Assembly: GCF_018334155.1 (NCBI RefSeq)
Contig: NZ_JAGXTP010000002.1
Coordinates: 186,001 to 250,000, forward strand
Length of the DNA: 64,000 nucleotides
Reading direction: 5' to 3'
DNA from: Devosia litorisediminis
GTDB taxonomy: Bacteria; Pseudomonadota; Alphaproteobacteria; Rhizobiales; Devosiaceae
Shown: piece by piece, positions 3,019-57,536 of the stretch
Numbering within the stretch: position 1 is the first letter of the stretch
Layout: each line of letters opens with the position of its first letter
The notes under the pieces: generated by a model
The model's database searches: none
The model's input: only the letters and a program-made list of their open reading frames with translations
Told to the model about the DNA's origin: nothing
Translations under genes and position numbers: made by a program

Positions 3019-3095
3019 GCGCCCTTAGCTCAGCTGGATAGAGCACCAGACTACGAATCTGGGGGTCAGGAGTTCGAATCTCTTAGGGCGCGCCA
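3019..3095 (+). tRNA. tRNA-Arg (anticodon ACG)
   Basis: A 77-nt cloverleaf. Acceptor strands 3019-3025 (GCGCCCT) and 3085-3091 (AGGGCGC) pair perfectly, followed by discriminator G and an encoded CCA at 3093-3095. The anticodon stem CCAGA/TCTGG encloses loop CTACGAA, giving anticodon ACG at 3053-3055. The T loop TTCGAAT is canonical. The gene is intact and its 3' end is the left edge of the genomic island. Confidence 0.96.
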
Positions 3096-4760
3096 CTTCT
3101 GTACAAAACTGTGAACACCATTTGCAGAAAAAGTTCCTTCGATAATCGAGCGGTGCAGGTTGTGTGTGCTGCCGATGATCAAGATCCTTTTGTCGCCCAC
3201 AATAACCCGTCCCACCACAGTGCGAAGGTAGTTGCGCCGCAAAGCGGGATCGCCGTAGCTGAGCTTGTCCTTTAGGGTTCGGGAGAAGGCTGCGACCTTC
3301 TCAGAGTGTATTTGGCCCAGTGGCGCGGCCTTTGCGAGGATACGTTTGATCGTTGAATCCAGCTTGGTTTTTTGAGTGCGCAGGTTTTGGATCCGAGCTG
3401 AAAGCCCCTCGTCAATACCAAGGCCTCCCGTTTCAGCGAGCTGATATAGGTTGTTGATTGCCGCCTCGACCTTTGAGCGCTCTGACCTTAGGTCGTTGAG
3501 ACGAGTGTCGACATTGCCTGCGAACTCCGTGCGTCGAGCAATTAATTTTTGGAGCAGCCGGTCAATGCGATCAGGCGGCAATATTCGGTTTAGCACAGCT
3601 TCGAGGATTATACTGTCGAGGTAGGGCATCGCTACGCGGTTTCCCTTGCAGACGCTCGTGCCTTTCTGAGCACGATTGGCGCATGCATAGTAGGTGTAAA
3701 CTTTGCCGCTCTTGGAGGTCCCCGTGGACATGGTCATTCCGCCACCACAGTGCTCGCAAGTGGCTAGTCCAGTGAGTAAAACGGGGCCCGTGACCACACG
3801 GGGAGGCGTAACCCTCGGATTATGGTCCGAAAGCTTCTGCTGGGCCGCCTCAAACTGAGTTTGCTTAATGATTGGTGGCACTGCGAACTCAATGATTTCA
3901 TCCTTTGGATGCTTGCCACCGCGGGCAGAATTGCGGATAGAGTATCGCCCCCGCCCGGTGTAAATTGGATTTGTCAGAAGCTTGTGGGTCGGACCCACGC
4001 TGAACTTACTGCCCTTTCTGGTCTGATATCCGTGACGGTTGAGCCAGGCTGCAACCGCAGTCACGCCTAGCGGTGGTGTTCCTGTTGTGACATCGCCGTT
4101 AAGGTAGAGGTCAAAGATTAGACGGACGGTGTCCGCTTCCACTTCATCGATTGCCAGCACTTTCTTGATCTTGGCGCCTCGCTGCTCGGCAGCAACAGCT
4201 TTGTAGCCGAGCGGTGGAGGTGAGCCGTTCCAGAAACCTTGCTGCGCATTCTCGCGCATCGCCCGAGTGACGTTTTTTGCGTTCTCAACGGAGACGTGCT
4301 GGTCGAACAATGCCAGCATCTGTCGAACTAGCTGTTGCGTTGGATCCGAGCCGGAAGGCTGGGTGGCGGAAACCAGATCGACGCCAACTTCAAGCATGCG
4401 CTTTGCGGCAGTCTCCATCCCGATCAAGTCGCGGTATAATCGGCTATAGGAGTGCACAATGATGGCGTCGAAGGGGCGTTCTGAACTGCATGCAAGGTCG
4501 AGCATGCGCGTGAGCTCTGTCCGGGTCGGGTTCGTCCCTGATGCGCCTGCATCGACAAACACGCTAACAATTTCCCAGTTGCGCGATTTACAAAACGCTT
4601 CGATTTGATGCTGCTGGCTGGGAAGTGAAACTTCCCCATCCGCCTGTCGAACGGTGCTGACGCGAAGATAAGCCGCGACTCGCATCGGCTTGGAAGAGGT
4701 CAATTCAGCCTGGAGGGCCGTTCCGAGGTTCGATAGATCCATCGCCGCTTGCTCACTCAA
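3066..4760 (-). CDS. Large serine recombinase / integrase
   Basis: A 564-residue serine recombinase that catalyses site-specific integration and excision. The resolvase domain begins with YLRVST (the nucleophilic Ser, about residue 36), with further conserved Arg and Asp positions through about residue 180. A recombinase domain follows (PPPLGYKAV onward), then a zinc ribbon (CEHCGGG ... CANRAQKGTSVC) and a coiled-coil-like C-terminal stretch typical of large serine integrases. Start codon TTG 4760 or ATG 4742 cannot be separated. The stop lies inside tRNA-Arg on the opposite strand, so the last nine or so residues come from antisense tRNA sequence. Excision at the 23-bp repeat would swap this C-terminus. 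It is the best candidate for the island's own integrase. Confidence 0.9.
   Translation of the reverse strand: MSEQAAMDLSNLGTALQAELTSSKPMRVAAYLRVSTVRQADGEVSLPSQQHQIEAFCKSRNWEIVSVFVDAGASGTNPTRTELTRMLDLACSSERPFDAIIVHSYSRLYRDLIGMETAAKRMLEVGVDLVSATQPSGSDPTQQLVRQMLALFDQHVSVENAKNVTRAMRENAQQGFWNGSPPPLGYKAVAAEQRGAKIKKVLAIDEVEADTVRLIFDLYLNGDVTTGTPPLGVTAVAAWLNRHGYQTRKGSKFSVGPTHKLLTNPIYTGRGRYSIRNSARGGKHPKDEIIEFAVPPIIKQTQFEAAQQKLSDHNPRVTPPRVVTGPVLLTGLATCEHCGGGMTMSTGTSKSGKVYTYYACANRAQKGTSVCKGNRVAMPYLDSIILEAVLNRILPPDRIDRLLQKLIARRTEFAGNVDTRLNDLRSERSKVEAAINNLYQLAETGGLGIDEGLSARIQNLRTQKTKLDSTIKRILAKAAPLGQIHSEKVAAFSRTLKDKLSYGDPALRRNYLRTVVGRVIVGDKRILIIGSTHNLHRSIIEGTFSANGVHSFVQKWRALRDSNS
3087..3109 (+). repeat. 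Left attachment-site repeat (attL core) at the tRNA-Arg 3' end
   Basis: Fifteen bases (GGCGCGCCACTTCTG), one variable base, then ACAAAAC. The same 23-bp pattern recurs at 57514-57536 with the variable base changed from T to A. It covers the last nine bases of tRNA-Arg plus 14 downstream bases. A repeat overlapping a tRNA 3' end, with recombinase genes just inside both copies, is the classic signature of site-specific island integration. Confidence 0.8.
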
Positions 4761-5025
4761 CTCGTTGTACCGTCAGTACCCTCACTCACCTTGATGAAAA
4801 CGCAAACCGCTGGTTTTCTGCCTCCACAGGTACGAGCATTTCTATACTTAACGCCTCCAGCGTGACGGGTTTGCCGCTTCAGATACGGGGATGGCCTTGC
4901 GATTGGGGTGAACGTCGTCATTCAACTGACGGCTTTGCGAAAGTCTCAGCGTCACATTTTTCCATACCTTTTAGATCACCCGAAGTCCGTCCACCTCTTC
5001 CTTTCTCAAATGCCGCTGTGCTGGT

Positions 5026-5052
5026 TCACGACCCGCTAATGCTGGGTCGTGA
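5026..5052. repeat. Inverted repeat, 9-bp perfect stem
   Basis: TCACGACCC (5026-5034) and GGGTCGTGA (5044-5052) pair perfectly around a 9-nt loop. No T tract follows on either strand, so a simple intrinsic terminator is unlikely. Confidence 0.7.
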
Positions 5053-5111
5053 GGGGACATGTGGCACCGCTGCGCTGCGCGCGCATTGGAGAATGGAGCC
5101 TTGAGGTGGCC

Positions 5112-5204
5112 TTGACCCCGCAGCAGGCCACTTACGCCTGCGGCGTTGCTCCAGCTCCGATGGAGCTGGTGGGGGTGATTGTTTGTGGCCTGCTGCGGCG
5201 TCAA
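5112..5204. repeat. Long stem-loop: 20-bp outer arms with nested hairpin
   Basis: The outer arms, 5112-5131 and 5185-5204, are reverse complements over 20 bases with one mismatch. Inside them CCAGCTCC (5151-5158) and GGAGCTGG (5162-5169) form a perfect hairpin with a 3-nt loop. Folded as one unit this is a strong 93-nt structure that could act as RNA or as single-stranded DNA. Confidence 0.7.
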
Positions 5205-5368
5205 CCTCGGGCTCGAGCGTCTGAATGAGATTCCAGATTGTCCCATTGAGCCTGACCCCATCTTCTTTGCTCCCTTTCTTGCTGTCCCAAGAAAAAGGAC
5301 GCCCTTTGGCGGCCACTTGGCGTCTGGTAACCCCGAGACCGCTTGGTCGAGCGGAGTTACCTGTCGCC

Positions 5369-5402
5369 GGCAAGACCGGGCCTCGATGGGGCCGGTCTTG
5401 CC
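5369..5402. terminator. Strong hairpin downstream of the CoiA-like gene
   Basis: GGCAAGACCGG (5369-5379) and CCGGTCTTGCC (5392-5402) give an 11-bp perfect GC-rich stem starting 10 bases beyond the stop of the minus-strand gene. The position suits a terminator or a 3'-end stabilising hairpin, but no clear U tract follows on the minus strand. Confidence 0.5.
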
Positions 5403-5412
5403 TCTCTTGTGA

Positions 5413-6852
5413 CTAGCGGCGCGCTGAGATGCGCAGGTTTGGCGCAAACTTTGGCGGCTTGGCCAAAAGGCGGAAGCCAAGCCAGGGGAAGATCACGCTG
5501 AGCATGCCGGCATTGTAGCGCAGGTAGGGTTTGACCTTGTCGGGGCTGGTCAGCAGCGTGTTGAGGCGGGCCGCATTCCCCGGGGTGAGGGCCTGCTGCA
5601 CGCATGGGAAGGTCTGGTGGACCTGCACCACCAGGGGCGACCAGTGCAACGCGCTCTGCGCGCCCAGTAGCGTGGTCAGTCGCCGTTGCAGCTTGGGCGC
5701 GATCATCGCTCGGTTTTCGGGGCGGGCCTTGCTGTAGTGCTCCGAGGCGCTGAGGAACGCCATCACGGCGTCCAGTTGCAGGGACTTGGCGCTGGCGGGC
5801 TCCATGCCGCTGATACTATTGGAGATGCGGCGCCACTCTGCCGAGACCAGCCGCAGGTCCAGGTTCTTGGTGGCGACGTCGCGCAGCATGCGCAGCTCAG
5901 GTCCGAACGCGTCCTCGGCCTTGTTGGACAAGGCTTGCTGATAGCGCTGGACCCCTTCGGCCTTGCGGCGCTGCGGATCCATCAGGATGACGTCGATGCC
6001 GACGAGATTCTTGTCCCAGGTGTTGTGGATAGCTAGCTGGCTAGCCAGGCGCGGCAATAGCTGCAGTTCCTGCAGCTGGAACTGGTACTGCCCCTTTGAA
6101 GCGGCGATGGAAGCGTCATCGATCGCAAAGATCCGCCCTCCTGTGGTCAGGTGCAGGTCGCAAAAGGCCTGGCGGCTCAAGCGCGAGAGGTCCGCGGCGT
6201 CGGTGAGCCAGACATGGTGGCACGCATTGGCGCGATAGAAATCGTTGCGATCCTGGATCGTGCTGATCGGCAGGGTCGCCAGTTGCAGATCGAAGGTGAT
6301 CCGCTTGCCATCGAGGACCGCGCTGACATCTGGCACCCGATAGGTGCCATCTTCAGCAGTGATGCGCTTTTCGATCTGCACATCGCTGAAGCGCGGATCT
6401 GAGCGCAGGCAAGCTGCCAGTGCGAGCTTGAGAGCGTGGTGGTTAATCCCTTCCTGCTGGCCAGCAAACTGCACCGCGCCCACATCGTGGACGCCGCCCT
6501 TGGTGCGCAGCGAGCACGCTGGAGCGCTCTCGATGAAGGCGTGTTTGAAATAGGCGCCGCGACCATCAGCGGGCACTGTGGCAGATGCCGGGTGCTTTGG
6601 CAGCGAGAGGGGCTCCCCGCACTCAATGCAGACAAAGCGCGGCGCCGCCGTTTCCTTGGAAGATGTCACCTCATCGCGAAGGATTGCCAGCCCAGAAACG
6701 GTCAGGGGATCAAGCACACTCTGGGTGGTGCGCAGCTGCTTGCCAGCGGGCAGGCTGGTGTCGATTACCTGTGTGATGCTGCGGCTGCTGCTGTAGCCAG
6801 CATTGTGGATGTGAGTGTTGTTGGTGGTGGCGTTGATATTGGTGTTGGTCAT
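5413..6852 (-). CDS. CoiA-like / DUF6035-type putative nuclease
   Basis: A 479-residue protein. Residues 75-78 (CIEC) with His about 104 (FKHAF) form a CoiA-like N-terminal zinc-binding pattern. A restriction-endonuclease-like core follows: His about 138, PDV about 174-176, and FDLQLA about 187-192, matching the PD-(D/E)xK layout with Gln in the last motif. The remaining ~280 residues are helical and not recognised. CoiA-like proteins process DNA in competence; homologues on mobile elements have no settled role. Start ATG 6852 has AAGGAA about 7 bases upstream. The gene lies 50 bases downstream of the AAA+ ATPase on the same strand, so the two are likely one operon. Family call is moderate; activity is inferred. 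Confidence 0.6.
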   Translation of the reverse strand: MTNTNINATTNNTHIHNAGYSSSRSITQVIDTSLPAGKQLRTTQSVLDPLTVSGLAILRDEVTSSKETAAPRFVCIECGEPLSLPKHPASATVPADGRGAYFKHAFIESAPACSLRTKGGVHDVGAVQFAGQQEGINHHALKLALAACLRSDPRFSDVQIEKRITAEDGTYRVPDVSAVLDGKRITFDLQLATLPISTIQDRNDFYRANACHHVWLTDAADLSRLSRQAFCDLHLTTGGRIFAIDDASIAASKGQYQFQLQELQLLPRLASQLAIHNTWDKNLVGIDVILMDPQRRKAEGVQRYQQALSNKAEDAFGPELRMLRDVATKNLDLRLVSAEWRRISNSISGMEPASAKSLQLDAVMAFLSASEHYSKARPENRAMIAPKLQRRLTTLLGAQSALHWSPLVVQVHQTFPCVQQALTPGNAARLNTLLTSPDKVKPYLRYNAGMLSVIFPWLGFRLLAKPPKFAPNLRISARR

Positions 6853-6902
6853 GATTCAGTTCCTTGTTGTTGGATTGGGTGGGCTGTTCAGAAAAAGAGA
6901 GT

Positions 6903-8009
6903 TCAGTTGAGGATGGGGCGCGCCGAGGCGGCCTCAGCCGCGTCGAGGGCCTTGTTGAGCTTGCGTAGACTGGTGATCCGGCCTGAGCGCACCGCCTTGG
7001 CCAGGGGCGCGACCAGTTCTGGCTCCAGGCCGCGGCGCTCGATTTCACCGGCAGCGATCTTGGCGATGTCGCCGGCGGTGAGCTTGGGCAGCCGGATCAC
7101 CTGGCAGCGATCGAGGAACGGCTTGGAGAGCCGGTTCAAATCGTTGACCAGAATGATCCAGTTGATGAACCGCATGTCCAAAGTGGCCTGGGTGTAGTGG
7201 TCCAGATGCGCTTTGGCGGTGGTGGCTTCGAGCAGTCCCACCAGGCTTTCGCTGGGTTTGGGATGGGCGTTGCGGCCATGGTTTTGCAGCTTGTCGAGCT
7301 CGTCGAGCGCCACAAAGGGATTGGCGATCCGTGAAGCAGACATGGCCTGCATGATCTCGCTGGGCCGCGAATGCGACCAACTGGAATCCTGCCCCAAAAT
7401 TGGGGTCAGCGTGTTCATGGTGGCGCAGTCCAGATAGATCAGTGGCAAGCCGCTGGCATTGCCCAACTCATGCACAAAGCGGGTCTTGCCTGCCCCGGGC
7501 TCAGACTCGATCACGATCGGGCGGAAATGCAGCCATCGCGCGCCCTGCCTGATCTTGAGCTGCGCATTGACGCGCATGGCCTCAATGGCTGGGGCAAAGT
7601 TGGGCGACTTGGCAAAGAGGGCTGCCGCCATCTCATCGACGGCATGCGGCGTGGATGGCCCAGCCAGCAGCTTTGTCTCGGACAGGCCCACCAGCAGGTT
7701 CTGGACAGCATGGCTGTCGTCCCGGCTCGTGCGCGGCGCTGCTCGTGATCCTTGGTCTTTCTCGGACACAAGCTTGATGGTCGTGGTGTCCCACCCCTCC
7801 AGCGCGATGCAGCGCGGTTTTTGGAACTGGGTGCGATCGATCATTTCCAGGAACGCCAGGCTTTGCTCGGGCCAGGGTCCAAAACGGTCCTCGTCCTCCA
7901 GGCGATCGAATGGATTTTTTGCGGTATTCAACATTTTCTCGGAATCCAGGGCGAGCGGGGCTGTGGCACGTTCAGTGCGCAAGCCGGCTCGATGAGCGGA
8001 ATCGATCAC
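6903..8009 (-). CDS. AAA+ ATPase (Lon/MoxR-like core)
   Basis: About 368 residues from GTG 8009; ATG at residue 26 is an alternative start. Walker A is EPGAGKTR (about 170-177), Walker B FVALDELDK (231-239), sensor 1 is near VNDLN (288-292), and an arginine finger lies in FLDRC (R301). A C-terminal helical lid follows. The N-terminal ~150 residues carry no recognised domain and no protease domain follows, so it is not a full Lon. AAA+ proteins remodel partners at the cost of ATP. Here the obvious partner is the CoiA-like nuclease encoded just downstream. A two-gene accessory system is plausible but unproven. Confidence 0.7.
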   Translation of the reverse strand: MIDSAHRAGLRTERATAPLALDSEKMLNTAKNPFDRLEDEDRFGPWPEQSLAFLEMIDRTQFQKPRCIALEGWDTTTIKLVSEKDQGSRAAPRTSRDDSHAVQNLLVGLSETKLLAGPSTPHAVDEMAAALFAKSPNFAPAIEAMRVNAQLKIRQGARWLHFRPIVIESEPGAGKTRFVHELGNASGLPLIYLDCATMNTLTPILGQDSSWSHSRPSEIMQAMSASRIANPFVALDELDKLQNHGRNAHPKPSESLVGLLEATTAKAHLDHYTQATLDMRFINWIILVNDLNRLSKPFLDRCQVIRLPKLTAGDIAKIAAGEIERRGLEPELVAPLAKAVRSGRITSLRKLNKALDAAEAASARPILN

Positions 8010-8080
8010 GCAGGGGCCCAGGCTCGAGCCATCAGCTCGAGATCAAGGTCCAGGCGTTGATCGAGGCGGGTGGGGGAGCG

Positions 8081-8206
8081 CTAAAGCGCGCGGCCTACCA
8101 GGCAGGCGTCGCGAAACGCAGCGACGCCGGGCCACCCAAAGGATCCAGAAATGTCAGGGAAGGTGTTGCGGCGAATCCGATCGCGCGCGTAGATGAAATC
8201 AGCCAT
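8081..8206 (-). CDS. Small 41-residue ORF with good ribosome site
   Basis: ATG at 8206, stop at 8081-8083, 41 codons. AGGAG sits 7 bases upstream of the ATG on the minus strand (8214-8218), close to ideal spacing. It lies 71 bases upstream of the ATPase gene and on the same strand, so it could be the first gene, or a leader peptide, of the nuclease/ATPase operon. The peptide is basic in its first half (RDRIRRN) and matches nothing I recognise. The ribosome site supports translation; a function cannot be given. Confidence 0.4.
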   Translation of the reverse strand: MADFIYARDRIRRNTFPDISGSFGWPGVAAFRDACLVGRAL

Positions 8207-8717
8207 GTGGCTTCTCCTGTTACTGCAGGTGCGGCTACCTGGTCAGGCCGTCAGTCCGGTTGCACCCGGGCTGTCGGCCGCCTTGCTAGGCAGCCACGGA
8301 TTCCGGGATGGAATCCTGAGACGACAGTGCCTTAACCCAACCAGCTCGTCATCACGGTTCGTTAATAATGGTTAACAGGATGCTGAATCCGACCGGAATG
8401 AAGCTTCGGAGAATTTCGAAAATGGCGGGTGATCAAGCAGAGCGGTGATACCAGGGGCACTCACTCAAAGCAAAGCAGACGTTTCAGGTGTGCTGCTTCG
8501 TCGAGTTGCAAAAAATGAGAGTGTAGCAGACGTCAGCTATGCGCCCCGTTTTGGACATTCGAGCCCTAGATCCTAAGCCCTAGAAGCAGCCGTTCAGCAT
8601 TTCAACGAAAGGATTTTGCTTTTCCGCTCGGGCCGTAGGACAAATCTATCAAGATGGCAGAGAGGTACTAAATGCTAACCCGCCGCCATCCGAACCCTCC
8701 GCGTTGCGAGGAGAAGT
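8207..8717. other. Intergenic region, no gene recognised
   Basis: About 500 bases upstream of the small ORF/ATPase operon. No convincing coding frame on either strand. It probably carries the promoter of the minus-strand operon; AT-rich sequence around 8360-8380 (GTTAATAATGGTTAAC) is a candidate regulatory site. Confidence 0.4.
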
Positions 8718-11565: not shown

Positions 11566-11608
11566 CGCATAAGGCATTTGCGCTCTTTGGCAGGAAGGGA
11601 ATTTGGCG

Positions 11609-12454
11609 GTGACGGTATCAACCCTACTCGGTGACTATCCAATCACGCACGCATTCAAAGCGGCGGCGGCCACGTCGGACGTCGCGTTCGATTTTTTGCC
11701 CGGCAAACCCGTGACCTATTTCCGCAGGTTCTTCCAGAAACTCGATATCGACATCGCCGAAGTGCCGATCATGACGTTTCTGATTGCCCGTGAGCGCGGG
11801 GTGCCTGTTGCACTGCTGCCTGCTATCGTCTTGGGCGGCAGCCAGCACGAATATCTGTTTCGCAACGCCACCAGCGATTTGGGATCGCCTGCTGATCTTG
11901 CGGGAAGGCGCATTGGCGTCCGCTCCTACAGCGTCACGACCGTCGCCTGGCTACGCGACATTTTGCAACGCGAACACGGCGTTGACCCCAGCACGATTAC
12001 CTGGGTGACCTTCGAGCCGCCGCATCTGCCAATTCTGAAGGATCTGCCAAATGTGGTCGCGGCTCCGGCCGGCATCTCATGCGACGAGATGCTTGCCGTA
12101 GGCCAGTTGGATGCTGCCGTTCTGCGCGCTGTCCCGACTGGGCGCAACTTCGTGCATGTCATTGAGGACCCGGTTGCGGCCGGTGATGCTTGGTGCAAGC
12201 GCGAGGCCGGTCTTCAAATCAATCATATGGTTGCCGTTCCACGGGCCTTTGCGAGCGCCAACCCTGAAGCCGTATCGGCATTCATGGCAGGGCTTCGCGC
12301 CAGCGCAAGACGCGCGGGAAAAGAGAACCTCATCGGTCTGGATTCGATCCGGCACAGTCTCGAACTGTCCATCCAATGCGCGGTTCGACAGGGGCTGATC
12401 CACAGCGAACCCCAGATCGATCAGTTGTTCGCACAAAGTTCATTCGGGCCCTGA
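11609..12454 (+). CDS. Periplasmic-binding-fold protein, 4,5-dihydroxyphthalate decarboxylase-like
   Basis: About 281 residues with no signal peptide, so cytoplasmic. The fold is that of type 2 periplasmic binding proteins (AEVPIMTFLIARERG, then DLAGRRIGVRSYSVTTVAWLR in part). Cytoplasmic members without a leader include 4,5-dihydroxyphthalate decarboxylase, which releases CO2 from a substituted phthalate to give protocatechuate. Neighbouring genes suit aromatic or polycarboxylate breakdown. GTG 11609 is preferred because AGGAAGGGA ends eight bases before it; TTG 11603 is too close to that site. An alternative is a binding protein of an ABC importer, but no ABC genes are present. Confidence 0.6.
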   Translation: MTVSTLLGDYPITHAFKAAAATSDVAFDFLPGKPVTYFRRFFQKLDIDIAEVPIMTFLIARERGVPVALLPAIVLGGSQHEYLFRNATSDLGSPADLAGRRIGVRSYSVTTVAWLRDILQREHGVDPSTITWVTFEPPHLPILKDLPNVVAAPAGISCDEMLAVGQLDAAVLRAVPTGRNFVHVIEDPVAAGDAWCKREAGLQINHMVAVPRAFASANPEAVSAFMAGLRASARRAGKENLIGLDSIRHSLELSIQCAVRQGLIHSEPQIDQLFAQSSFGP

Positions 12455-12502
12455 GAGCCTGATTTGGAAGACATCAATGTCACAACAAGGGAGAGAGAGA
12501 GA

Positions 12503-48015: not shown

Positions 48016-49043
48016 GCACATTCATCATTGCCGAAGCCGGGGTCAATCACAATGGTGACGCAGCACTGGCGCGGCGGCTGGTCGAAGTGGCGGCGGAAAG
48101 TGGGGCGGATGCGGTCAAGTTCCAGACCTTTTCAGCCGATAAGCTGACGGCCAAGGGGGCCGCCAAAGCAGAGTACCAGAAGCGTGCTACGGGTGACGGC
48201 GACCAGTATGATATGCTTAAGGCGCTTGAGATGTCCGAGACCCTACACAAGGAGTTGGCGGCACTGTCGAGCGAGTTGGGCATTGAGTTTATGTCGACCG
48301 CCTTTGATGAGGAATCGCTCGATCTCTTGGTTGCCTTGGGAATTAGACGCATCAAGGTGCCCTCTGGCGAGGTTACCAACCATCACTTCTTGCGGTACAT
48401 GGCACGCAAGAACTTGCCGCTCATTGTCTCGACCGGTATGGCCGACCTAGCCGAAGTCGAGGAAGCGATAGCGGTCATCGCAGCAGAGCGGGAGGCTCGG
48501 GGCTTGTCTGGCGCCTTAGAGGACATGGTCTCCGTGCTGCACTGCACCTCGAATTATCCGGCTGCCGTTGAAGACGTGAATCTTAACGCCATGCTCACCA
48601 TGGGTAAAGCCACCGGGATGCCTGTGGGCTACTCCGATCATACATTGGGTATTGCTGTATCGACTGCGGCGGTTGCCATGGGCGCATGCGTCATAGAAAA
48701 GCACTTTACTCTCGACAAGAACATGCCCGGACCTGATCATGCCGCCTCGCTTGATCCCGAAGAGCTCAAAGCCATGGTTGACGCGATAAGAGCCGTGGAA
48801 GGAGCCCTGGGCGACGGCGTCAAGGCGCCGACTGCCTCCGAGGTTCCGGTACGTGCACTGGTCCGGCGGAGCGTTACCACGGTTCGTCCGGTCGCTGCTG
48901 GCATAGTGATCGAGCCATCGGACCTGACCCTGATGCGTCCCGGGACAGGCATACCGCCCAAGGACTTCCAGTCCGTTGTCGGCCGCAAGGCGGCCCATGA
49001 CATCGCGGCCGGCAAGACGCTGGACTGGGCCGACCTGCAATGA
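48012..49043 (+). CDS. Nonulosonic acid synthase (NeuB/LegI type)
   Basis: 343 residues. The NeuB TIM barrel shows FIIAEAGVNHNGDAALARRL, AVKFQTFSADKL, VPSGEVTNHHFL, STGMADLAEVE and SDHTLGIAVSTAAVAMGA followed by IEKHFTLDKNMPGPDHAAS. A C-terminal antifreeze-like SAF domain (about 285-343) ends the protein. It condenses a six-carbon sugar with phosphoenolpyruvate to the nine-carbon acid. The neighbours make legionaminic acid the most likely product. Confidence 0.94.
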   Translation: MSTFIIAEAGVNHNGDAALARRLVEVAAESGADAVKFQTFSADKLTAKGAAKAEYQKRATGDGDQYDMLKALEMSETLHKELAALSSELGIEFMSTAFDEESLDLLVALGIRRIKVPSGEVTNHHFLRYMARKNLPLIVSTGMADLAEVEEAIAVIAAEREARGLSGALEDMVSVLHCTSNYPAAVEDVNLNAMLTMGKATGMPVGYSDHTLGIAVSTAAVAMGACVIEKHFTLDKNMPGPDHAASLDPEELKAMVDAIRAVEGALGDGVKAPTASEVPVRALVRRSVTTVRPVAAGIVIEPSDLTLMRPGTGIPPKDFQSVVGRKAAHDIAAGKTLDWADLQ

Positions 49044-50179
49044 GCGAGCGACGCAAGGTCGTATACGTGACGGGTACGCGGGCAGATTTCGGCCTGATGC
49101 AGTCGACCCTGAAGGCCATACATGCCAGCTCAGTTCTGGAACTGGGGATTGTGGTGACCGGCATGCATCTGGACGAGCGCTACGGGGATACCGCCAAGGA
49201 GATCGAGGATGCCGGCCTGCCTGTCGTAGCGCGAGTGCCGGTGAGTCATGTCCAGTCGCAGGGCGCCGACACGGCTCGCAACATCGCCACCATGCTCAGT
49301 GGCTTCGTCAATGCCTTCGCGGAAATAGTCCCGGATCTCGTTCTGATTTTGGGCGACCGAGGGGAAATGTTGGCCGCGGCAATTGCTGGCGGCCACATGT
49401 CGATACCGGTCGTCCACGTGCATGGGGGTGAACGCTCCGGCACCATAGACGAACCGGTACGCCATGCGATCTCCAAGCTCTCGCATATCCATCTCGTTGC
49501 GACGGAAGAGAGCGCCGAGCGGCTCGTCAAGATGGGCGAGACGCCAGAGACCGTGCATATCATCGGTGCGCCTGGTCTCGACGGGCTGACCGAGTTGGCC
49601 TCCTACGAAAAGAAGGCGCTGTTTGCAGAACTCGGACTCGAGCAAGGCAAACAAACAGCCCTCTTGCTCTATCACCCCGTATTGCAGGAGGCCGATGAGG
49701 CCGGCGAACAGGTTGATGCAGTAATCCGATCCCTGCTTGCCGAGAACTTTGCGGTGCTCGCACTCAAGCCAAACTCGGATGCCGGTAGCGCAAAGGTTCT
49801 TGGGGCCTTGGAGCGCCGGTCTGGACAAGGTGATATTCTACTTCTGACCCACCTTCGGCGCGACCAGTTCGTATCGCTCCTCAAGCATGTGGACGTTCTA
49901 ATCGGCAATTCGAGCAGCGGTATCATCGAGGCAGCCTCTTTTGGCACCCCGGTAGTCAATATCGGCTCGCGCCAGCACCTGCGCCAACGAAACCGCAATG
50001 TGATCGACGTCGCCGCCGAAGAAAGCGCAATTGCTCGTGGCCTTGCCTTGGCACAGCAGATGGGGCGCCTGCATCCCGGCAACATTTACGGTGATGGCAA
50101 CGCCGGTGGTCGACTCGTGTCCATCCTAGAATCGCTCGACCTCTCGGGCCAGCTTATGAACAAGTTCAATGCCTACTGA
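49040..50179 (+). CDS. Hydrolysing UDP-sugar 2-epimerase (NeuC/LegG type)
   Basis: 379 residues. The NeuC family begins here with VYVTGTRADFGLMQSTL and shows GMHLDERYGDT, ILGDRGEMLAAAI, HVHGGERSGTIDEPVRHAI and GNSSSGIIEAASFGTPVVNIG. It removes UDP and epimerises C2 to give the free 2-epimer that NeuB uses. With a 4,6-dehydratase and aminotransferase in the operon, UDP-2,4-diacetamido-2,4,6-trideoxyglucose is the probable substrate. Confidence 0.93.
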   Translation: MSERRKVVYVTGTRADFGLMQSTLKAIHASSVLELGIVVTGMHLDERYGDTAKEIEDAGLPVVARVPVSHVQSQGADTARNIATMLSGFVNAFAEIVPDLVLILGDRGEMLAAAIAGGHMSIPVVHVHGGERSGTIDEPVRHAISKLSHIHLVATEESAERLVKMGETPETVHIIGAPGLDGLTELASYEKKALFAELGLEQGKQTALLLYHPVLQEADEAGEQVDAVIRSLLAENFAVLALKPNSDAGSAKVLGALERRSGQGDILLLTHLRRDQFVSLLKHVDVLIGNSSSGIIEAASFGTPVVNIGSRQHLRQRNRNVIDVAAEESAIARGLALAQQMGRLHPGNIYGDGNAGGRLVSILESLDLSGQLMNKFNAY

Positions 50180-50792
50180 CAGCCTGCAATTGATCGGTGC
50201 GGGTGGACATGCAGCCGTCGTGGCCGATGCTGCTATGCTCTCCGGGGAGGGGAGGCTGGTCGTTTTCTCCCAAGATCGCTACCAGGCGGGACATGACGTG
50301 CTGGGTTGTGTGGTCCAGCTTCTCGACGAGGGCATTGTGCTTGGCCGGATTCATGTGGCTATCGGCAACAATGCAGTTCGGTCGCGACTCCAGCGGCAGT
50401 TCTCCGGCAGAGGCGCAGTCTCGACGACGATAATTCACCCTCAGGCGATCATTGCGGCCACATCGGCTGCCGGGGCGGGGAGCTTTGTGGCGGCGGGTGC
50501 CATCCTTGCGCCGCGGAGCCGCATTGGAGAGGGGAGCATCGTCAACCACCGCGCCATCGTGGACCATGATGTTTCTGTGGGTGAATTCAGTCACATTGCG
50601 CCAGGATCCGTTCTGGGCGGGGGTGTAAAGGTCGGAAGTGGCGTCCTTGTGGGGGCGGGCGCCACGGTAATGCCTAATGTCACGATCGGAAATGGAGCCA
50701 CGATTGGTGCTGGCGCGGTGGTGCTGGCCGATGTATCGGCTGGGGCAACAGTGGTCGGCGTGCCAGGCCGCGAGATAAGAAAGAATGCCTGA
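50169..50792 (+). CDS. NeuD/PglD-like sugar N-acetyltransferase
   Basis: 207 residues. The N-terminal PglD-type domain (LIGAGGHAAVVADAAML) binds the UDP-sugar, and the rest is a left-handed beta-helix of hexapeptide repeats (VNHRAIVDHDVSVGEFSH, LVGAGATVMPNVTIGNGAT). The catalytic His is likely in HRAIVDHD. It would acetylate the 4-amino group made by the aminotransferase. Overlaps the NeuC-like gene by 11 bases and the next by one. Confidence 0.9.
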   Translation: MPTDSLQLIGAGGHAAVVADAAMLSGEGRLVVFSQDRYQAGHDVLGCVVQLLDEGIVLGRIHVAIGNNAVRSRLQRQFSGRGAVSTTIIHPQAIIAATSAAGAGSFVAAGAILAPRSRIGEGSIVNHRAIVDHDVSVGEFSHIAPGSVLGGGVKVGSGVLVGAGATVMPNVTIGNGATIGAGAVVLADVSAGATVVGVPGREIRKNA

Positions 50793-52264
50793 TGGAAATC
50801 TTGGAATTGAGCATCCTGCGTCACGCTACTCTGCGTGAGGCTCTCGCGCAGCTCGATCGTACTGCGCAGGGGGTCATCCTGCTCAATGACGAGTCCGGTC
50901 GCTTCGAACGGACCATCACCGATGGCGATCTTCGCCGAATGATGCTGCAGGGGGCCAGCCTTGACGACCAGCTAGCAGAACTGGCGCACGCCGAATCGGT
51001 TACCTTGGCCCCTGGGTTCACGCGCCGCCAGGCCCTCGAAAAGATGCAGAAGCACGGCATCAATCAGGTGCCTGTAGTCGACGCATCTGGGCGCGCCGTG
51101 GACCTAGTACTTCGGGCCGAGATCGACGAACAGATACTGCTCTCTACGCCTCATATGGGAAGCGCCGAACTCGATTTTGTCGGTGAGGCGTTCCGAACCA
51201 ACTGGATTGCCCCACTCGGTCCCAACGTCGACGCCTTCGAGGGTGAAATGGCCGACGCGGTGGGCGCTAGCCATGCAGTAGCTTTGAGCTCAGGCACAGC
51301 CGCCATACACATTGCGCTGATCCTGCTCGGCGTTGGCCACGGCGACGCCGTGTTTTGCTCGTCGCTGACTTTTGCCGCAAGCGTCAACCCCATTGTCTAT
51401 CAGGGTGCAGAACCAGTCTTGATTGATTCCGAACCCGACAGCTGGAACATGTCGCCTGTCGCGCTTGAGCGGGCGCTGGCGGCTGCAACTCGGGCCAATC
51501 GCCTGCCGAAGGCCGTGATCATCGTCTCTCTTTATGGCCAGAGTGCCGACATGGACCCGCTGTTGGAGCTGTGCGACCATTATGGTGTGCCAGTTATCGA
51601 GGACGCCGCTGAGTCACTTGGCGCCACCTATAAAGGCAAGTCTTCGGGCACCTTTGGCAAGCTGGGCATCTATTCTTTCAACGGGAACAAGATTATCACG
51701 ACGTCCGGCGGCGGCTTGCTGGTAACCGAAGACAAGGCACTTGCGGACCGTGCCCGATTCCTGGCTACCCAGGCGCGTGACCCAGCGCCGCACTACGAGC
51801 ATACGGTCATCGGGTACAACTACCGCATGAGCAATATCCTTGCCGGCGTTGGTCGTGGTCAGCTCCGTGTACTGGGCGAACGGGTTGCCGCCCGCCGGGC
51901 CGTATTTGATCTTTACAAATCGGAGCTCAGCGACCTCGGCTGGCTTGAATGGATGCCGGAGCCAGAGTGGAGTGTTTCGACCCACTGGCTCTCAGTCTGC
52001 ACAATAGCCAAGGATTGTGCACGTATCAGCAATTCGGATGTCATCGCTGCCCTTGCCGCAGACCTGATCGAGGCGCGCCCGGTTTGGAAGCCCATGCATA
52101 TGCAGCCAGTTTTTTCGGCTTGCGATTATTATGAGCATGGCAACGCGTCGGTTTCTGACGACCTTTTCGCACGGGGGATATGCCTGCCCTCTGGTTCAAA
52201 CATGACCGAGGGCCAAGTTCTGCGAGTTATCGAGCGTCTTCGCGCGTACTCTAGGCTGTGTTGA
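50792..52264 (+). CDS. CBS-domain pair fused to DegT/LegC-type aminotransferase
   Basis: 490 residues, about 110 longer than a typical sugar aminotransferase. Residues 1-117 form two CBS motifs (GVILLNDESGRFERTITDGDLRRM is the first in part; HGINQVPVVDASG the second). Residues 120-490 are a PLP aminotransferase of the DegT/DnrJ family with ALSSGTAAIHIALI, EDAAESLGATYKGK and the Schiff-base Lys about 300 (FNGNKIITTSGGG). It would aminate C4 of the keto sugar (PglE/LegC step). CBS pairs bind adenine nucleotides; in PtmE-like proteins they are fused to a nucleotidyltransferase instead. Here they may give nucleotide control of the pathway. Confidence 0.88.
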   Translation: MEILELSILRHATLREALAQLDRTAQGVILLNDESGRFERTITDGDLRRMMLQGASLDDQLAELAHAESVTLAPGFTRRQALEKMQKHGINQVPVVDASGRAVDLVLRAEIDEQILLSTPHMGSAELDFVGEAFRTNWIAPLGPNVDAFEGEMADAVGASHAVALSSGTAAIHIALILLGVGHGDAVFCSSLTFAASVNPIVYQGAEPVLIDSEPDSWNMSPVALERALAAATRANRLPKAVIIVSLYGQSADMDPLLELCDHYGVPVIEDAAESLGATYKGKSSGTFGKLGIYSFNGNKIITTSGGGLLVTEDKALADRARFLATQARDPAPHYEHTVIGYNYRMSNILAGVGRGQLRVLGERVAARRAVFDLYKSELSDLGWLEWMPEPEWSVSTHWLSVCTIAKDCARISNSDVIAALAADLIEARPVWKPMHMQPVFSACDYYEHGNASVSDDLFARGICLPSGSNMTEGQVLRVIERLRAYSRLC

Positions 52265-52768
52265 CAAAAGGGATTCCCAAATCGCTGCCTGACTGATCGA
52301 GGCTTCCTTTCAGAGGAGGCAGTTTTGGCTCGGGGCGATCTGACTGATGATGAGTGGGCGCAGGTCAATCAACCCAAGGACTCTCCTCAAAATCGGAGGG
52401 AACTTGGGGCTCAGGTCAGACTCGACGCCAGCGTTTGGCATTTAGACTCTCCGCTTACGATTGTTGTTCGTCTGCTGAACAATCCCGTTCTTTTGGAAGC
52501 CGTTTCAACCCGGCTACTACATGCTGGACGTACCACTTGGGCGGCTCGTCAGTCAGCCGGTCCCAGGGTGCGATCAATCAAGCAAACCAGCGCCTACAGA
52601 CCAATCTACAGACCGTTGGCGACCTTGCGCTACGTGCGGCCGCTGGTCTCGTCAGCCGAACGGCCTCGGCTTCAAGTTCGACTTACTAGTGTCGTGAAGT
52701 CTCTTGTTCCATCATTGGGAACTCGCCGCTTTTCCAGTGTACGCCCACACACGAGAGATGTCGGGTAA
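52253..52768 (+). pseudogene. IS5-type transposase remnant (N-terminal fragment)
   Basis: GGCTGTGTTGACAAAAGGG at about 52255 resembles an IS end. AGGAGG at 52315-52320 and a TTG start at 52325 give MARGDLTDDEWAQV, the usual start of IS427-group transposases. Similarity is lost after about 14 codons, so this is a decayed scrap. It explains the 650-base gap between the aminotransferase and deacetylase genes. Confidence 0.45.
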
Positions 52769-52914
52769 GCATTGTCACGGTTGGGATTTCATGGTAGCGA
52801 AACGCCTGCTCGACATAGCGAGTACCATGGGTCCGGCCTACATGTTCGATGCATGATCATATCTACAGTGTTGCATTTGTGGGCAGCTCTGCAGTGGTTG
52901 CAAAGTGAGTCACG

Positions 52915-53844
52915 ATGTTCAGTTTTGGCTTAATGCTTCACCATTTTCATGGAGGGGCGCATCCACAGGGGCAAGGCACGATTTCTGCCGATGACCTGGC
53001 AGACATTATCGAGTATCTGGGGCCACGCAATGTGTTGGCCCCGGACGACTGGATAGAACGTTCGCTCGCCGGGCGCCTTGAACCGTATCATCGATGCATC
53101 ACACTGGATGACGCCCTTCGCTGCCAGATGGACGTCGCCAAGCCTGTCTTTGACGCCTATAACCTAAAGGCGTTCTTCTTTGTCTATTCCGTGGTTTTCG
53201 AAGGTAAAGTGGAGCGTACGGAACTGTTCAGGCACTACAGGACTGTGCGCTTCCAAGATGTAGAAGAATTCTACGCGGCTTTCTTTCGTATTCTCAATAA
53301 ATCGGAATATGCAAGTGAAGTCCGGGACATGGTCGAAGACTTCGATTCTATCGGGTATCTGTCGAACTACTCATTCTACTCGAGAAGCGACAGGATGTTC
53401 CGATACGTGCGGGACGTTGTACTGGGGCGCGACAGATATTTCAGCGTCATCGATGGAATGATAGAAGCCGACGCCGCCTACGACTCCACCGCTGCTTCAA
53501 GATCACTGTGGTTGAGCCCGCAGGACGTCAGTCTCCTGCATGAGGAAGGCCACGTGATAGGGCTGCACTCGCACACGCATCCCACATCCTTGGCCAGCCT
53601 CAGCGCCGAGGAGCAGCGCAGCGAATATGTGGCCAATATGGAGCACCTGTCAGCCCTGTTGGGGGAAGCGCCTCGGACCATGTCGCATCCGTTGAACAGC
53701 TATAATCTCGACACGCTGAACCTGCTGGCCGACCTTGGCGTCAAGATCGGGTTCCGCGATAATATGATGCTAGGCCCCGATGCGTCGCTGCTGGAACAGC
53801 CTAGAGAAGATCACGCGAACATAATGAGTGCAATTCGTAAATGA
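52915..53844 (+). CDS. Polysaccharide deacetylase-family protein
   Basis: 309 residues with the NodB-type metal motifs: an Asp-Asp pair in CITLDDALRC near residue 63 and HSHTHPT near residue 221. No signal peptide is evident, so it acts in the cytoplasm on a sugar or sugar nucleotide rather than on a finished polymer. It overlaps the formyltransferase gene by four bases (ATGA). This supports a two-step swap: removal of N-acetyl, then N-formylation. Confidence 0.82.
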   Translation: MFSFGLMLHHFHGGAHPQGQGTISADDLADIIEYLGPRNVLAPDDWIERSLAGRLEPYHRCITLDDALRCQMDVAKPVFDAYNLKAFFFVYSVVFEGKVERTELFRHYRTVRFQDVEEFYAAFFRILNKSEYASEVRDMVEDFDSIGYLSNYSFYSRSDRMFRYVRDVVLGRDRYFSVIDGMIEADAAYDSTAASRSLWLSPQDVSLLHEEGHVIGLHSHTHPTSLASLSAEEQRSEYVANMEHLSALLGEAPRTMSHPLNSYNLDTLNLLADLGVKIGFRDNMMLGPDASLLEQPREDHANIMSAIRK

Positions 53845-54635
53845 AGGTCTCGATATTCACGTCGAACAGCGCTCGGCACGTCTCGCTCGCAGAGAAGATC
53901 TCGAGCGTAGCTGATCATGTGTACCTGGTTCAGGAGTGTTCAACAGTCTTTCCGGGGCGGGTGGAGGGTTATTATCGCAAGTCGCCGGTCATGCAGGACT
54001 ATTTCGGCCGCGTCATTGAAGCCGAACAAACAGTGTTCGGTACCCCGCGCTTCCTGCCCGGAAATGTTAGCCAGTTGTCTTTCCTTATGGAGGATATCTC
54101 CTTGGCGAGCCTTGATATGCTAACGCCAGCACTGGATGTTGATGCCATCATCGTCTTCGGTGCCAGTTACATAAGGGGGCCACTGGTCGATCAGTTGATT
54201 GCCCGCCGTGCAATCAACATTCACATGGGGATGTCGCCCTACTATCGCGGCAGTTCATGCAATTTCTGGGCGCTCTATGATGGCAACCCCGATCTCGTCG
54301 GTGCGACGATCCACATGATCAGTCGTGGATTGGACAGTGGGGCGATGCTCTTCCACGTGCGCCCGGCCCAGGTGGCCACCGATCCCTTCCTGCTGGGGAT
54401 GCGGGCGGTCGAGGCAGCACACGACAGCTTGGTGGAACGCTTGTCGAATGGGAGTCTGGCGAGCTACTCCGAAGTCGCCCAAGATCGTACAGCGGAAATC
54501 CGCTATACAAGAAATTCTCAATTTACCGATGAGATTGCCGCGGAGTACCTAGCACGCCAGCTTGACGCCGGATGGGTCGGCGAAGCGATGGCCAAGGCTC
54601 CGCCACGAGACTTTATCAGCCTCTACCAGCAATAG
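53841..54635 (+). CDS. Formyltransferase-family protein (sugar N-formyltransferase candidate)
   Basis: 264 residues with the methionyl-tRNA formyltransferase-like catalytic fold. The catalytic block INIHMGMSPYYRGSSCNFWA carries the Asn-His pair, and GATIHMISRGLDSGAML supplies the conserved Asp. There is no tRNA-binding C-terminal domain, as in sugar N-formyltransferases (VioF, FdtF and similar), which use N10-formyl-tetrahydrofolate. Coupling to the deacetylase gene and to a nonulosonic-acid operon favours a sugar amine as acceptor. Confidence 0.82.
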   Translation: MKVSIFTSNSARHVSLAEKISSVADHVYLVQECSTVFPGRVEGYYRKSPVMQDYFGRVIEAEQTVFGTPRFLPGNVSQLSFLMEDISLASLDMLTPALDVDAIIVFGASYIRGPLVDQLIARRAINIHMGMSPYYRGSSCNFWALYDGNPDLVGATIHMISRGLDSGAMLFHVRPAQVATDPFLLGMRAVEAAHDSLVERLSNGSLASYSEVAQDRTAEIRYTRNSQFTDEIAAEYLARQLDAGWVGEAMAKAPPRDFISLYQQ

Positions 54636-54980: not shown

Positions 54981-55793
54981 TCAGTTGTGGTTTGTGTCGG
55001 ATGTTGCGGTCAAGGGGCTGGTTTTCTCTTTCGGTTTTGAGGGTGTGTGCGCCGAGCTGTTCTTGAAACGGTAGCTGTCGTTTCCGGTTTCGAGGATGTG
55101 GCAATGATGGGTGAGCCGATCGAGCAGCGCGGTGGTCATCTTGGCATCACCGAAGACACTGGCCCATTCGCTGAAGCTCAGGTTCGTGGTGATAATGACG
55201 CTGGTGTGCTCGTAGAGCCTGCTGAGCAGGTGGAAGAGCAAGGCGCCGCCCGAGGCGCTGAACGGCAGGTATCCCATCTCATCAAGGATGACGAGGTCGG
55301 CATAGGCGAGCCGACCGGCAATCTGACCGGCTCGCCCCTGCATTCTCTTCTCCTCAAGCGCATTGACCAATTCCACGGTTGAGAAGAAGCGGACGCGCTT
55401 GTGGTGATGCTCGATGGCCTGGACCCCGATGGCTGTGGCGATATGGGTCTTCCCGGTGCCCGGACCGCCGACCAGAACGATATTGTTGGCGTCCTGGAGG
55501 AAGTCGCAGCGATGGAGCTGGCGCACCAAAGCCTCGTTGACATCACTGCTCGAGAAGTCGAAGCCATTGAGGTCGCGATAGGCTGGAAAGCGCGCCACCT
55601 TGAGCTGATAGGCCGTCGAGCGCACTTCCCGCTCTGCCGTCTCGGCCTTGAGCAGCTGAGACAGGATGGGGATGGCAGCCTCGAAGGCAGGTGCTCCCTG
55701 TTCGGTCAGTTCGTCGACCGCCTGAGCCATGCCATGCATCTTGAGGCTCTTGAGCATGATGATGATCGCACCGGCGGCAGGATTATGACGCAT
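54981..55793 (-). CDS. istB: IS21 helper ATPase IstB
   Basis: 270 residues. Walker [17 protein letters not shown] near residue 110, Walker [17 protein letters not shown] and [19 protein letters not shown] are characteristic. IstB assembles on DNA and activates the IstA transposase. Intact, but its partner is truncated. Its start overlaps the istA end by 11 bases as in functional elements. Confidence 0.92.
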
Positions 55794-56406
55794 GGCGGGC
55801 CTCCGAGGCTGTGCGCAGGGCGTCGTAGCGCTCTACATTGGCCTTGGGCTCATTGGTCAGAGCCAGTGCTTGCGGGGCATTGATGGTTGGCGGCGTGATG
55901 GCCTTGCCGTCCACCAGGCGGTGCAGCAGGTTCAACACATGGGTTTTGGTGGGGACGCCCGCCTCAAGCGCCATCTCGACCGCCAGGAGCACGGCATCCT
56001 CATCGTGCTGCAGGACCAGGGCGAGGATCTCGACCATCTCCCTATCACCGCCCGGCTTCTTCAGCAGATGCTGCTGCAGCGTTTTGAATGCCGGAGGCAG
56101 TTCGGCAAAAGGTGTCCCATTGCGCAGCGCACCGGGTTTGCGCTGCACGACAGCCAGATAGTGGCGCCAGTCATAGACGGTCCGGCCCGGCTGATTATGA
56201 GATCGGTCACTGATCCGATGGTGCTCGCAGACGACACCGCCTTGTGCGGCAACCACGATCCGGTCAGGATAAACCCTGAGGCTGACGGGTCGATTGGCAA
56301 AGGAGGCGGGCACGCTGTAGCGATTGCGGTCCAGATGCACCAGGCAGGTGGGCGTGACCCGCTTGGTGTATTCGACAAAGCCGTCGAACGGGCGTGGTGC
56401 CGGCAT
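55783..56406 (-). pseudogene. istA: IS21 transposase IstA, C-terminal fragment
   Basis: 207 codons remain of a protein normally near 500. The fragment begins after the catalytic domain, with VTPTCLVHLDRNRYSVPAS, RVYPDRIVVA and RTVYDWRHYLAV, all C-terminal blocks of IstA. The DDE domain is missing, so no transposase activity is expected. Confidence 0.85.
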
Positions 56407-56465
56407 CAGGGTTGGGGCTAATGCGCTTCAGCGGCCGCAACTTTTGACGTAGGCTGCCGTCCATA

Positions 56466-57431
56466 ATGCGTTGTAGCGGGGCTTGGTACGTGGCTGGCGG
56501 AAGGAAGAAGTTGGTTCAGACTGGCAAGCTGTCTGAGAGAGTACAGTCACTCCTGGAGGCTAGTCTCGCCGAAAATACGCACCGCACTTATGGGAGCGCC
56601 ATTCGGCTTTTTCGCCTCTGGTGCACTAAGAACAGGTTCAACGCATTGCCCGCCACAGCTGAGGTGGTGGCTGAATACATCGCATCGCTCATCGCCGCAG
56701 GCAAACGAGGTTCTTCAGCAAAGATCCACGCCTGCGCCATTGCACATTTGCATAATAGCAACGGGTATTGCACCCCCACGGACAGTTACCTTGTCAGGGC
56801 GGTTCTGCGAGGAGCTATGCGTTTGCGAGGGAGCCTTGTTGATCAGAAGTTGCCGGTAGTGGTTGCCGATTTCAGAATTGTTCTGCAGCACGTTCCAGAC
56901 ACACTGAAAGGGCGTCGCGATCGCGCGATGCTTTCCTTATGTTTTGCAGGAGCGTTACGGCGATCGGAAGTGGCTGCACTCCGTTTTGAGGACATGACGC
57001 TTTCGGAACAGGGCGTGACGATTTGCATAAGGAAGTCGAAGACCGATGTTCAAGGTCGAGGCGCCTATGTTGGCGTGCCCAACGGACGGGCGCTTGAGGT
57101 CGTATCTGCGCTGAGAGATTGGTTGGATGCCGCGAACATTACAAAAGGGGCGGTATTTCGCCCCGTTTACCGTAACAGGGTATTAGCCCGGACGGTTGAA
57201 CCTCTGCTGGTTTCGCGCGTCTTAAAGGCCTACTTAGAAAAGGCCGGTATCGACCCGGCGCGATACGGTGCGCACTCATTGAGAGCAGGCTTCATTACAA
57301 GCGCTGCAGAAGCTGGAGTCAGCTCGGATCGTATCATGGATCATTCGAGACATGTCGATCCAAGGCACGTACGAGAGTACGTGCGACGCGCAAATCTGTT
57401 TCTGGATCATCCTGGTGGTGCGTTCCTCTAG
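56466..57431 (+). CDS. Tyrosine recombinase / integrase
   Basis: 321 residues. An N-terminal SAM-like core-binding domain (about 22-120: NTHRTYGSAIRLFRLWC) precedes the catalytic domain with Arg about 166 (GALRRSEVAALR), Lys about 192 (RKSKTDVQG), His 270 and Arg 273 (HSLRAGF), His about 296 and the nucleophile Tyr about 305. All active-site residues appear present. The stop is 83 bases from the right attachment repeat, the usual place for an island integrase. It may have brought in the right part of the island independently of the serine recombinase. The first 15 residues may not be real. Confidence 0.9.
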   Translation: MRCSGAWYVAGGRKKLVQTGKLSERVQSLLEASLAENTHRTYGSAIRLFRLWCTKNRFNALPATAEVVAEYIASLIAAGKRGSSAKIHACAIAHLHNSNGYCTPTDSYLVRAVLRGAMRLRGSLVDQKLPVVVADFRIVLQHVPDTLKGRRDRAMLSLCFAGALRRSEVAALRFEDMTLSEQGVTICIRKSKTDVQGRGAYVGVPNGRALEVVSALRDWLDAANITKGAVFRPVYRNRVLARTVEPLLVSRVLKAYLEKAGIDPARYGAHSLRAGFITSAAEAGVSSDRIMDHSRHVDPRHVREYVRRANLFLDHPGGAFL

Positions 57432-57513
57432 CGGGTCTGCGTTCTTGAAAGCTAATCGTGGAAATTTACCTCTTGATTTCAATCACATAAGAGTTCGCAG
57501 TTCTATTCTGACT

Positions 57514-57536
57514 GGCGCGCCACTTCTGAACAAAAC
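57514..57536 (+). repeat. Right attachment-site repeat (attR core)
   Basis: Matches 3087-3109 at 22 of 23 positions. It includes nine bases identical to the tRNA-Arg 3' end (GGCGCGCCA). It marks the right island boundary. Confidence 0.8.

Follow-up and report, generated by a model that had tools for sequence, protein, structure and literature searches.

A serine recombinase gene apparently split by its own attachment site at a tRNA-Arg gene of Devosia litorisediminis

The tRNA-Arg locus and the two ends of the element

We analyzed a window of 64,000 nucleotides from Devosia litorisediminis (G000:C2:186001-250000), in which the gene for a large serine recombinase (LSR) runs into a tRNA-Arg gene, and a segment that continues the LSR reading frame lies at the far end of a 54.4-kb interval. 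The tRNA-Arg(ACG) gene (3019-3095, forward strand) is intact according to ARAGORN and Rfam (RF00005); its 3' end would be one half of the chromosomal attachment site (attB), and the LSR gene currently ends in its antisense strand. ARAGORN reported no tmRNA anywhere in the window. The LSR gene in its integrated form occupies 3066-4760 on the minus strand, with an uncertain start codon. Its product matches the Pfam Resolvase catalytic domain, the recombinase domain (Recombinase) and the zinc ribbon (Zn_ribbon_recom), all above the cut-off, which places it among the LSRs; the best NCBIfam match, the CcrB equivalog, scored 161.6 bits against the 900 required for that family. The LSR frame passes through a 9-bp core, GGCGCGCCA, into the tRNA gene and stops at 3066-3068; the last nine codons before the stop (WRALRDSNS) are tRNA-encoded. 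This passage of the frame across the core, the most notable trait of the locus, was missed in the first-pass annotation.

The first-pass annotation had described a 23-bp direct repeat with one mismatch at the 3' end of the intact tRNA gene and again at 57514, and both copies were recovered (3087-3109 and 57514-57536, 22 of 23 bases identical). Elsewhere in the window, the closest match to the 23-mer has 7 mismatches; none of 20 block-shuffled windows contained a match with fewer than 4. The tRNA contributes only 9 of the 23 bp, namely the core, which forms the left boundary (3087-3095, the first 9 bp of the repeat) and recurs at the right boundary (57514-57522). In our reading, the other 14 bp match because two tandem elements have similar left ends. 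The idea that the repeat is the entire crossover site was dropped because 14 of its 23 bases resemble the left arms of two elements. The element-side arm of the left boundary (3096-3125), recognized with a profile of left ends from 17 loci, lies within the LSR frame and has GTGTTCACAGT on the minus strand.

Leftward of the second core copy, on the LSR strand, we found WRASQNRTANSYVIEIKR followed by a stop codon, and the segment 57466-57522 (minus strand) continues the LSR frame from the core. This right arm, which closes the element, is the putative native 3' end of the LSR gene, now detached from it. On the sequence evidence, a site-specific element occupies 3087-57522 at tRNA-Arg, bounded at 3095 and 57522. 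The genomic island proposed earlier for 3087-57536 thus stands as an element at this tRNA gene, with its right boundary moved to 57522, and is in our reading only the first member of a tandem array.

We built a right-arm pattern from such arms, allowing up to 3 mismatches and using the reversed pattern as the control, and found it at 20 places in 17 of 75 genomes of the genus (control, 0). The stop is the 19th codon from the core in 20 of 20 of these arms, and conservation fades within one or two codons past it. Codons 10-19 have entropies of 0.56, 0.41 and 0.91 bits at positions 1, 2 and 3, with about 1.8 bits after the stop; codons 2-9 are about equally conserved at the three positions. Within-codon permutation gave p values of 0.005 (codons 10-18), 0.006 (11-18) and 0.023 (2-18). 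Single-base differences, as synonymous to non-synonymous, were 426:136 in the LSR frame, and 209:606 and 110:710 out of frame. Within the tail, the arginine codons AGA, AGG, CGC and CGA interchange, as do the stops TAA, TGA and TAG. The entropies, the permutation and the synonymous excess point to a coding constraint on the detached tail. Because the frame is open, the stop is fixed and the changes are mostly synonymous, the native C-terminus of the LSR is apparently stored at the far end of the element. In the order as a whole, right-arm matches came from 18 of 397 genomes, in 10 of 141 genera (control, none), and outside the genus 11 of 17 distinct sites keep the stop position. One locus (L189/L191, G287:C1:6198857-6198910) is a single palindromic site with the arm pattern on both strands.

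The LSR family and the geometry of its sites

Searching the 75 genus genomes for the LSR (E values up to 1e-60) gave 26 matches in 18 genomes. Seventeen of them overlap an intact tRNA gene at their 3' end (16 tRNA-Arg, ACG or CCG, and one tRNA-Ser), with the frame running through TGG in register in all 17; from W onward, the tRNA-encoded tails have 9, 21 or, at tRNA-Ser, 37 residues. As for the other nine, L074 ends in a 52-bp tRNA fragment, L098 has the native tail, and seven are partial, broken or otherwise placed (L078, L085, L089, L092, L095, L096 and L097, with L096 absent from the tail script). Among database homologues, 1450 proteins passed the threshold, and in the best 120 of these, assessed by regular expression, 107 have antisense-tRNA-like tails. 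Relatives that end likewise include those of Sinorhizobium pSymB at tRNA-Arg(CCG), a phage scaffold at tRNA-Asn and a Paracoccus genome at tRNA-Ser, the last being the one locus from a wider scan of genome contigs. The plasmid scan gave 13 records with a match, of which 3 were inspected, and the phage scan gave one, also inspected; the LSR copies on the Brevundimonas and Methylosinus plasmids have no intact tRNA at their end. The Brevundimonas plasmid pBH3a carries an LSR of the same family (L193) with a non-tRNA ending near a mercury-resistance gene. The LSR family appears to be spread across many genera.

For 8 of the 20 genus arms, there is an LSR match on the same contig (two in G000, and one each in G026, G011, G007, G071, G002 C11 and G093), and in all 8 cases the arm is on the LSR strand; the eight tabulated pairs span about 22-114 kb. 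Core copies were inspected on the LSR strand only, in 11 stretches. This revealed the known arm in G093 and two new types of tail at the far end, WRAGEDETGNGYVIAGAI in G022, which resembles database protein P0082, and WRTAPGEDDNYVYSVAL in G001, which resembles P0042. A search with tail expressions in G016, G091 and G001 only found no tail, its sole match, in G091, not being tail-like. The protein-database search with the native tail returned one protein only, P0122, which is the query's own source.

We compared the geometry of the sites using one profile of the left ends (17 loci) and one of the right arms (20). The arms have one strong dyad center (0.511; next, 0.349). Against the right arms, the tRNA region including the T-loop scores highest when shifted by 6 bp (0.511), and against the left arms its best center implies the same 6 bp (0.452; next, 0.343, scores given without a significance test); at these best shifts, the T-loop motif of the tRNA lies 6 bp nearer the center than the motif in the element arms. 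In LSRs, the zinc-domain motif has been described as 5 bp nearer the center in attB than in the element's site, attP (PMC3783163); compared with this published offset, 6 bp was the best of the shifts tried here, with the second nearly equal. Such a geometry would account for the use of several tRNA genes by one enzyme family. The core TGGCGCGCCA is palindromic. In G086, a tail arm rather than an LSR end directly follows an intact tRNA-Arg (L127, G086:C201:20367-20397), apparently an inverted insertion on the evidence of its sequence. Both the palindromic core and this arm would be expected if insertion were possible in either orientation.

The tandem array, relatives and cargo

The closest relative compared, G026, is 86% identical over the left query. 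Its left flank is conserved with ours up to the tRNA end at 3095, and the long conserved block restarts only at window coordinate 102594, 38.6 kb past the window, with only short shared modules earlier. A third, imperfect boundary copy lies at 89010. We take the region to be a tandem array that may reach 99.5 kb, with the 54.4-kb interval as its first element. The view in the first-pass annotation that the flanks look like ordinary chromosome was not confirmed, and the repeat does not bound the whole accessory region, since the non-syntenic part of about 99.5 kb reaches past the window. At 57514, the second element retains just about 14 bp of LSR-type left end (57523-57536), a putative remnant, and what looks like its right arm is outside the window at about 88987-89018. 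Cargo of the second element on the forward strand (58145-61682) comprises a flavin mononucleotide (FMN) riboswitch (58145-58294) and riboflavin genes, identified by Pfam except for the open reading frame (ORF) at 61206-61682; a similar riboswitch region is found elsewhere in the genome (C1:1908707). At 57530-57790 on the minus strand, there is an open frame that by eye resembles a flavodoxin-type reductase, seemingly cut at the left end of the second element.

In G026, a 49.5-kb element is arranged alike, bounded on the left by a homolog of the LSR and on the right by one of the tyrosine recombinase. This LSR element is preceded by a 23.6-kb island of another type (G026:C1, about 1235.7-1259.3 kb) at the same tRNA, marked by a tRNA repeat of 52 bp. 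We did not find an empty site: the DNA after the same tRNA differs in 13 of 13 relatives compared. The earlier prediction that an empty site would join the tRNA to the sequence after 57536 therefore found no example, and such a junction would read tRNA and then second element. In the 8 kb after the tRNA, the 13 relatives have no common match longer than 200 bases except G007 with G013; thus, this site is an insertion hotspot. As for the gene following our own 102594, G019 and G025 have it far from this tRNA, and G061 has it on a different contig. Tandem junctions in which a tail arm meets the next LSR end, so that the LSR behind gains a native tail, were found in G093 (3602034) and G007 (720428). 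The LSR sequences behind both are now damaged: the one in G093 has two stops, and that in G007 is an LSR-like C-terminal remnant, as judged by eye.

Recombinases had been reported just inside both ends, with a relaxase and insertion sequence (IS) remnants between them, and all of these are present. The tyrosine recombinase gene (56466-57431, forward strand) is just inside the right boundary. Such a gene is inside 3 of the 20 arms, namely our own, that of G026 and, in broken form, one in G002 (two arms offered fewer than 320 bases to search); in G061, it is on the same contig as the LSR, about 46 kb apart. From this distribution, the tyrosine recombinase seems to be a recurrent companion in some elements and not a general part. 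Islander-type tRNA islands combine a tyrosine integrase with a fragment of the tRNA at their far end; here, the fragment at 57514 is only 9 bp of tRNA, and the tyrosine recombinase is present but has the limited distribution just described.

Next to the LSR gene are an adjoining ORF (4971-5480) and, on the minus strand, genes for a CoiA-like nuclease/DUF6035 protein (5413-6852; Pfam, and blastn against G026) and a Lon-like AAA ATPase (6903-8009), which form a module common to G026 (4984-8317, 69-73% identity). As for a role in defence, PADLOC gave a match in 0 of the 10 ORFs searched. Cargo identified by Pfam at 11603-20413 includes TctC/TctA transporter genes, an MFS transporter, an IclR regulator, a 2-hydroxyacid dehydrogenase, an RraA-like protein and an FAA hydrolase. 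It is followed on the forward strand by a TrwC/MobF-type relaxase-helicase gene (21003-23660), an IS transposase remnant (rve_3, 30597-30989) and genes for surface polysaccharide and nonulosonic-acid-type sugars (36741-54635; Pfam, NCBIfam). Within the latter, 43338-50179 encodes a WbuX-type amidotransferase with HisF- and HisH-like partners, adjoining NeuB and PseF-like genes; by gene content, this is a nonulosonic-acid-type surface sugar pathway carried as cargo. An IS21-type remnant on the minus strand (54981-56406; Pfam IstB_IS21 and Mu-transpos_C_2) consists of istB and the C-terminal part of istA. No type IV secretion system family was found among the 50 ORFs searched with Pfam, of 189 listed. 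An integrative and mobilizable element has its own integrase and a relaxase and no conjugation apparatus; the relaxase is seen here, and the check for the secretion system spans those 50 of 189 ORFs.

A proposed mechanism, its rivals and its precedents

The best explanation of the whole, which we regard as quite probable, is that the element was integrated by its own LSR, whose gene was split at the core with the tail stored at the far end. The attP of the element would lie within the LSR gene, near its 3' end. Once excised, the circle would carry an LSR gene that continues across the core TGG-CGC-GCC into the native tail (WRASQNRTANSYVIEIKR, stop). Integration by the LSR at the 3' end of tRNA-Arg, with crossover in the core, would leave the native tail at the far end (57466-57522) and give the LSR gene an antisense tRNA end (WRALRDSNS, stop); excision would rejoin the tail to the gene. 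Of this, the sequence itself shows the boundaries, the frame open across the core at both ends, the coding-type conservation of the tail, the dyad of the arms and the 6-bp offset. The LSR, not the tyrosine recombinase, would be the enzyme that recombines the sites, and a circle would form. The swap of tails may in addition lower or change LSR activity and so latch the integrated state, to which we give about an even chance; re-excision, or a tandem neighbor, could undo the latch by resupplying the tail.

AlphaFold2 models of two proteins, one job for each and with 47 sequences, few of them with native tails, bear on the last point. In P0122 (375 amino acids, without the catalytic domain), which has a natural native tail, residues 368-374 are modeled as a strand; the last 15 residues have block mean confidence values (pLDDT) of 61 and 84, with 353-364 below 50. 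Foldseek places this model among solved LSR folds. In the LSR as integrated (P0001), residues 547-564 are all below 50 and unstructured. The contrast between an ordered native strand and a disordered tRNA-encoded tail is suggestive only.

Several observations weigh against the split-gene explanation. Only about 9 of the 26 LSR matches could be assigned a tail, and no clear tail was found in 8 of the 11 inspected stretches (G016, G091, G073, G013 C5, G013 C10, G061, G064 and G080). In 12 of the 20 genus arms there is no LSR match on the contig, and one such genome (G010) is a single contig; we put these cases down to loss, divergence beyond 1e-60 or contig breaks. Six of the 17 arms outside the genus are without the kept stop position. 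The exact arm pattern had 0 matches in viral contigs, and P0122 comes from an LSR gene with upstream stops. The synonymous counts were made pairwise among related sequences, stop codon included, and are not independent events. In the tRNA comparison with the right arms, the shift of -1 scores 0.468, near the 0.511 at +6, without a significance test. Lastly, no circle, empty site or activity has been seen.

Conservation of the right arm solely as a DNA binding site, its open frame being due to chance or ancestry, is highly improbable. The roughly equal conservation of all three positions in codons 2-9 is what a binding site would show, but codons 10-19 vary chiefly at position 3, the differences are mostly synonymous only in the LSR frame, arginine codons and stops interchange, and conservation is gone a codon or two past the stop. 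It is also unlikely, if less so, that the tyrosine recombinase (56466-57431) integrates the element through the 9-bp core or the 23-bp repeat, with the LSR as a passenger. Although the enzymes acting at tRNA genes are usually tyrosine integrases (PMC4383910), and this gene adjoins the right boundary both here and in G026 and shares a contig with an LSR in G061, about 46 kb off, no more than 3 of 20 arms have it inside them, with one of these copies broken and two arms leaving under 320 bases to search. It is the LSR that overlaps a tRNA in 17 of 26 matches, and the arms make a long dyad with a 6-bp offset resembling LSR half-sites.

A more serious alternative, falling only a little short of an even chance, disputes the latch only: the gene would be split as described, but both tails would work, and the arrangement would keep gene and site together without any regulatory effect. 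The LSR domains all precede the tail, and open LSR frames carry tails of varied length from various tRNAs, as this alternative would have it. However, the protein sequence of the native tail is conserved in all 20 genus arms, and the tail is modeled as ordered. Furthermore, a comparable swap in phage Mx8 is reported to yield a less active integrase (PMC4701971) or altered specificity (PMC6070905).

The principle of the split gene, as we propose it here, has precedents in Mx8, the rumA elements, DsiB and the suicidal archaeal integrases. DsiB of the Dehalococcoides ssrA islands is likewise a CcrB-like LSR; the 3' end of its gene overlaps attL, the stop lies beyond the island, and those islands are tandem too (PMC3146451). 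The authors suggest that, to be fully functional, DsiB may need the circle or an island in front that supplies the missing 3' fragment (PMC3146451). Islands of this type also have a second, small serine recombinase, DsiA, next to DsiB; the neighbor of the LSR here is the ORF at 4971-5480. The DsiB target is the tmRNA gene (ssrA), whereas here it is tRNA-Arg; the missing 3' fragment is not shown in the accessible part of that report, whereas here it is located, with its stop, and varies like coding sequence. The serine integrases of streptococcal integrative and conjugative elements at rumA (PMC4701971) have, as here, an attachment site within the integrase gene and a different C-terminus in the excised form, but their target is the rumA gene, not a tRNA, and the site named is attR. 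In phage Mx8, attP is inside the integrase gene, which acquires a new 3' end on integration (PMC6070905, PMC4701971), but that enzyme is a tyrosine integrase and 112 C-terminal residues are replaced by 13. Archaeal suicidal (SSV-type) integrases also have the site inside their gene and are split by it on integration (PMC8371274), as the LSR gene seems to be here. They are tyrosine and not serine recombinases, and their split separates whole domains and inactivates, whereas here the split spares the recognized LSR domains, which remain joined, and removes the tail alone. In the integration-dependent immunity of mycobacteriophages (PMC8092301), attP lies in a gene whose product changes its C-terminus on integration, as here, but this gene encodes a repressor, not an integrase. 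Paracoccus phage vB_PamS_Pami6 likewise has a serine recombinase with a predicted tRNA site (tRNA-Met), but is a single phage, and the part of the report available mentions no gene split (PMC6536676). A tRNA-targeting LSR family with a detached tail was not found in the parts of the open-licence literature searched; to our knowledge, what is new is such a family, with its far-end tail identified and coding-conserved, and the T-loop geometry.

We tentatively extend the split-gene explanation to this tRNA-targeting LSR family, whose tail cassettes occur in at least 10 genera of the order, while rating the extension somewhat below an even chance. The detachable C-terminal strand would be a built-in directionality latch: the circle would encode the complete enzyme, integration would swap the strand for a disordered tail read from the tRNA, and an element inserting in front would re-arm the LSR behind by supplying its tail. 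Both ends of such islands can be found, by the tRNA-tailed LSR at one and the 57-bp tail cassette at the other, and the system lends itself to asking directly whether the act of integration switches an integrase. Recombinases that recognize the T-loop region of tRNA genes may also be of interest for building integration tools.

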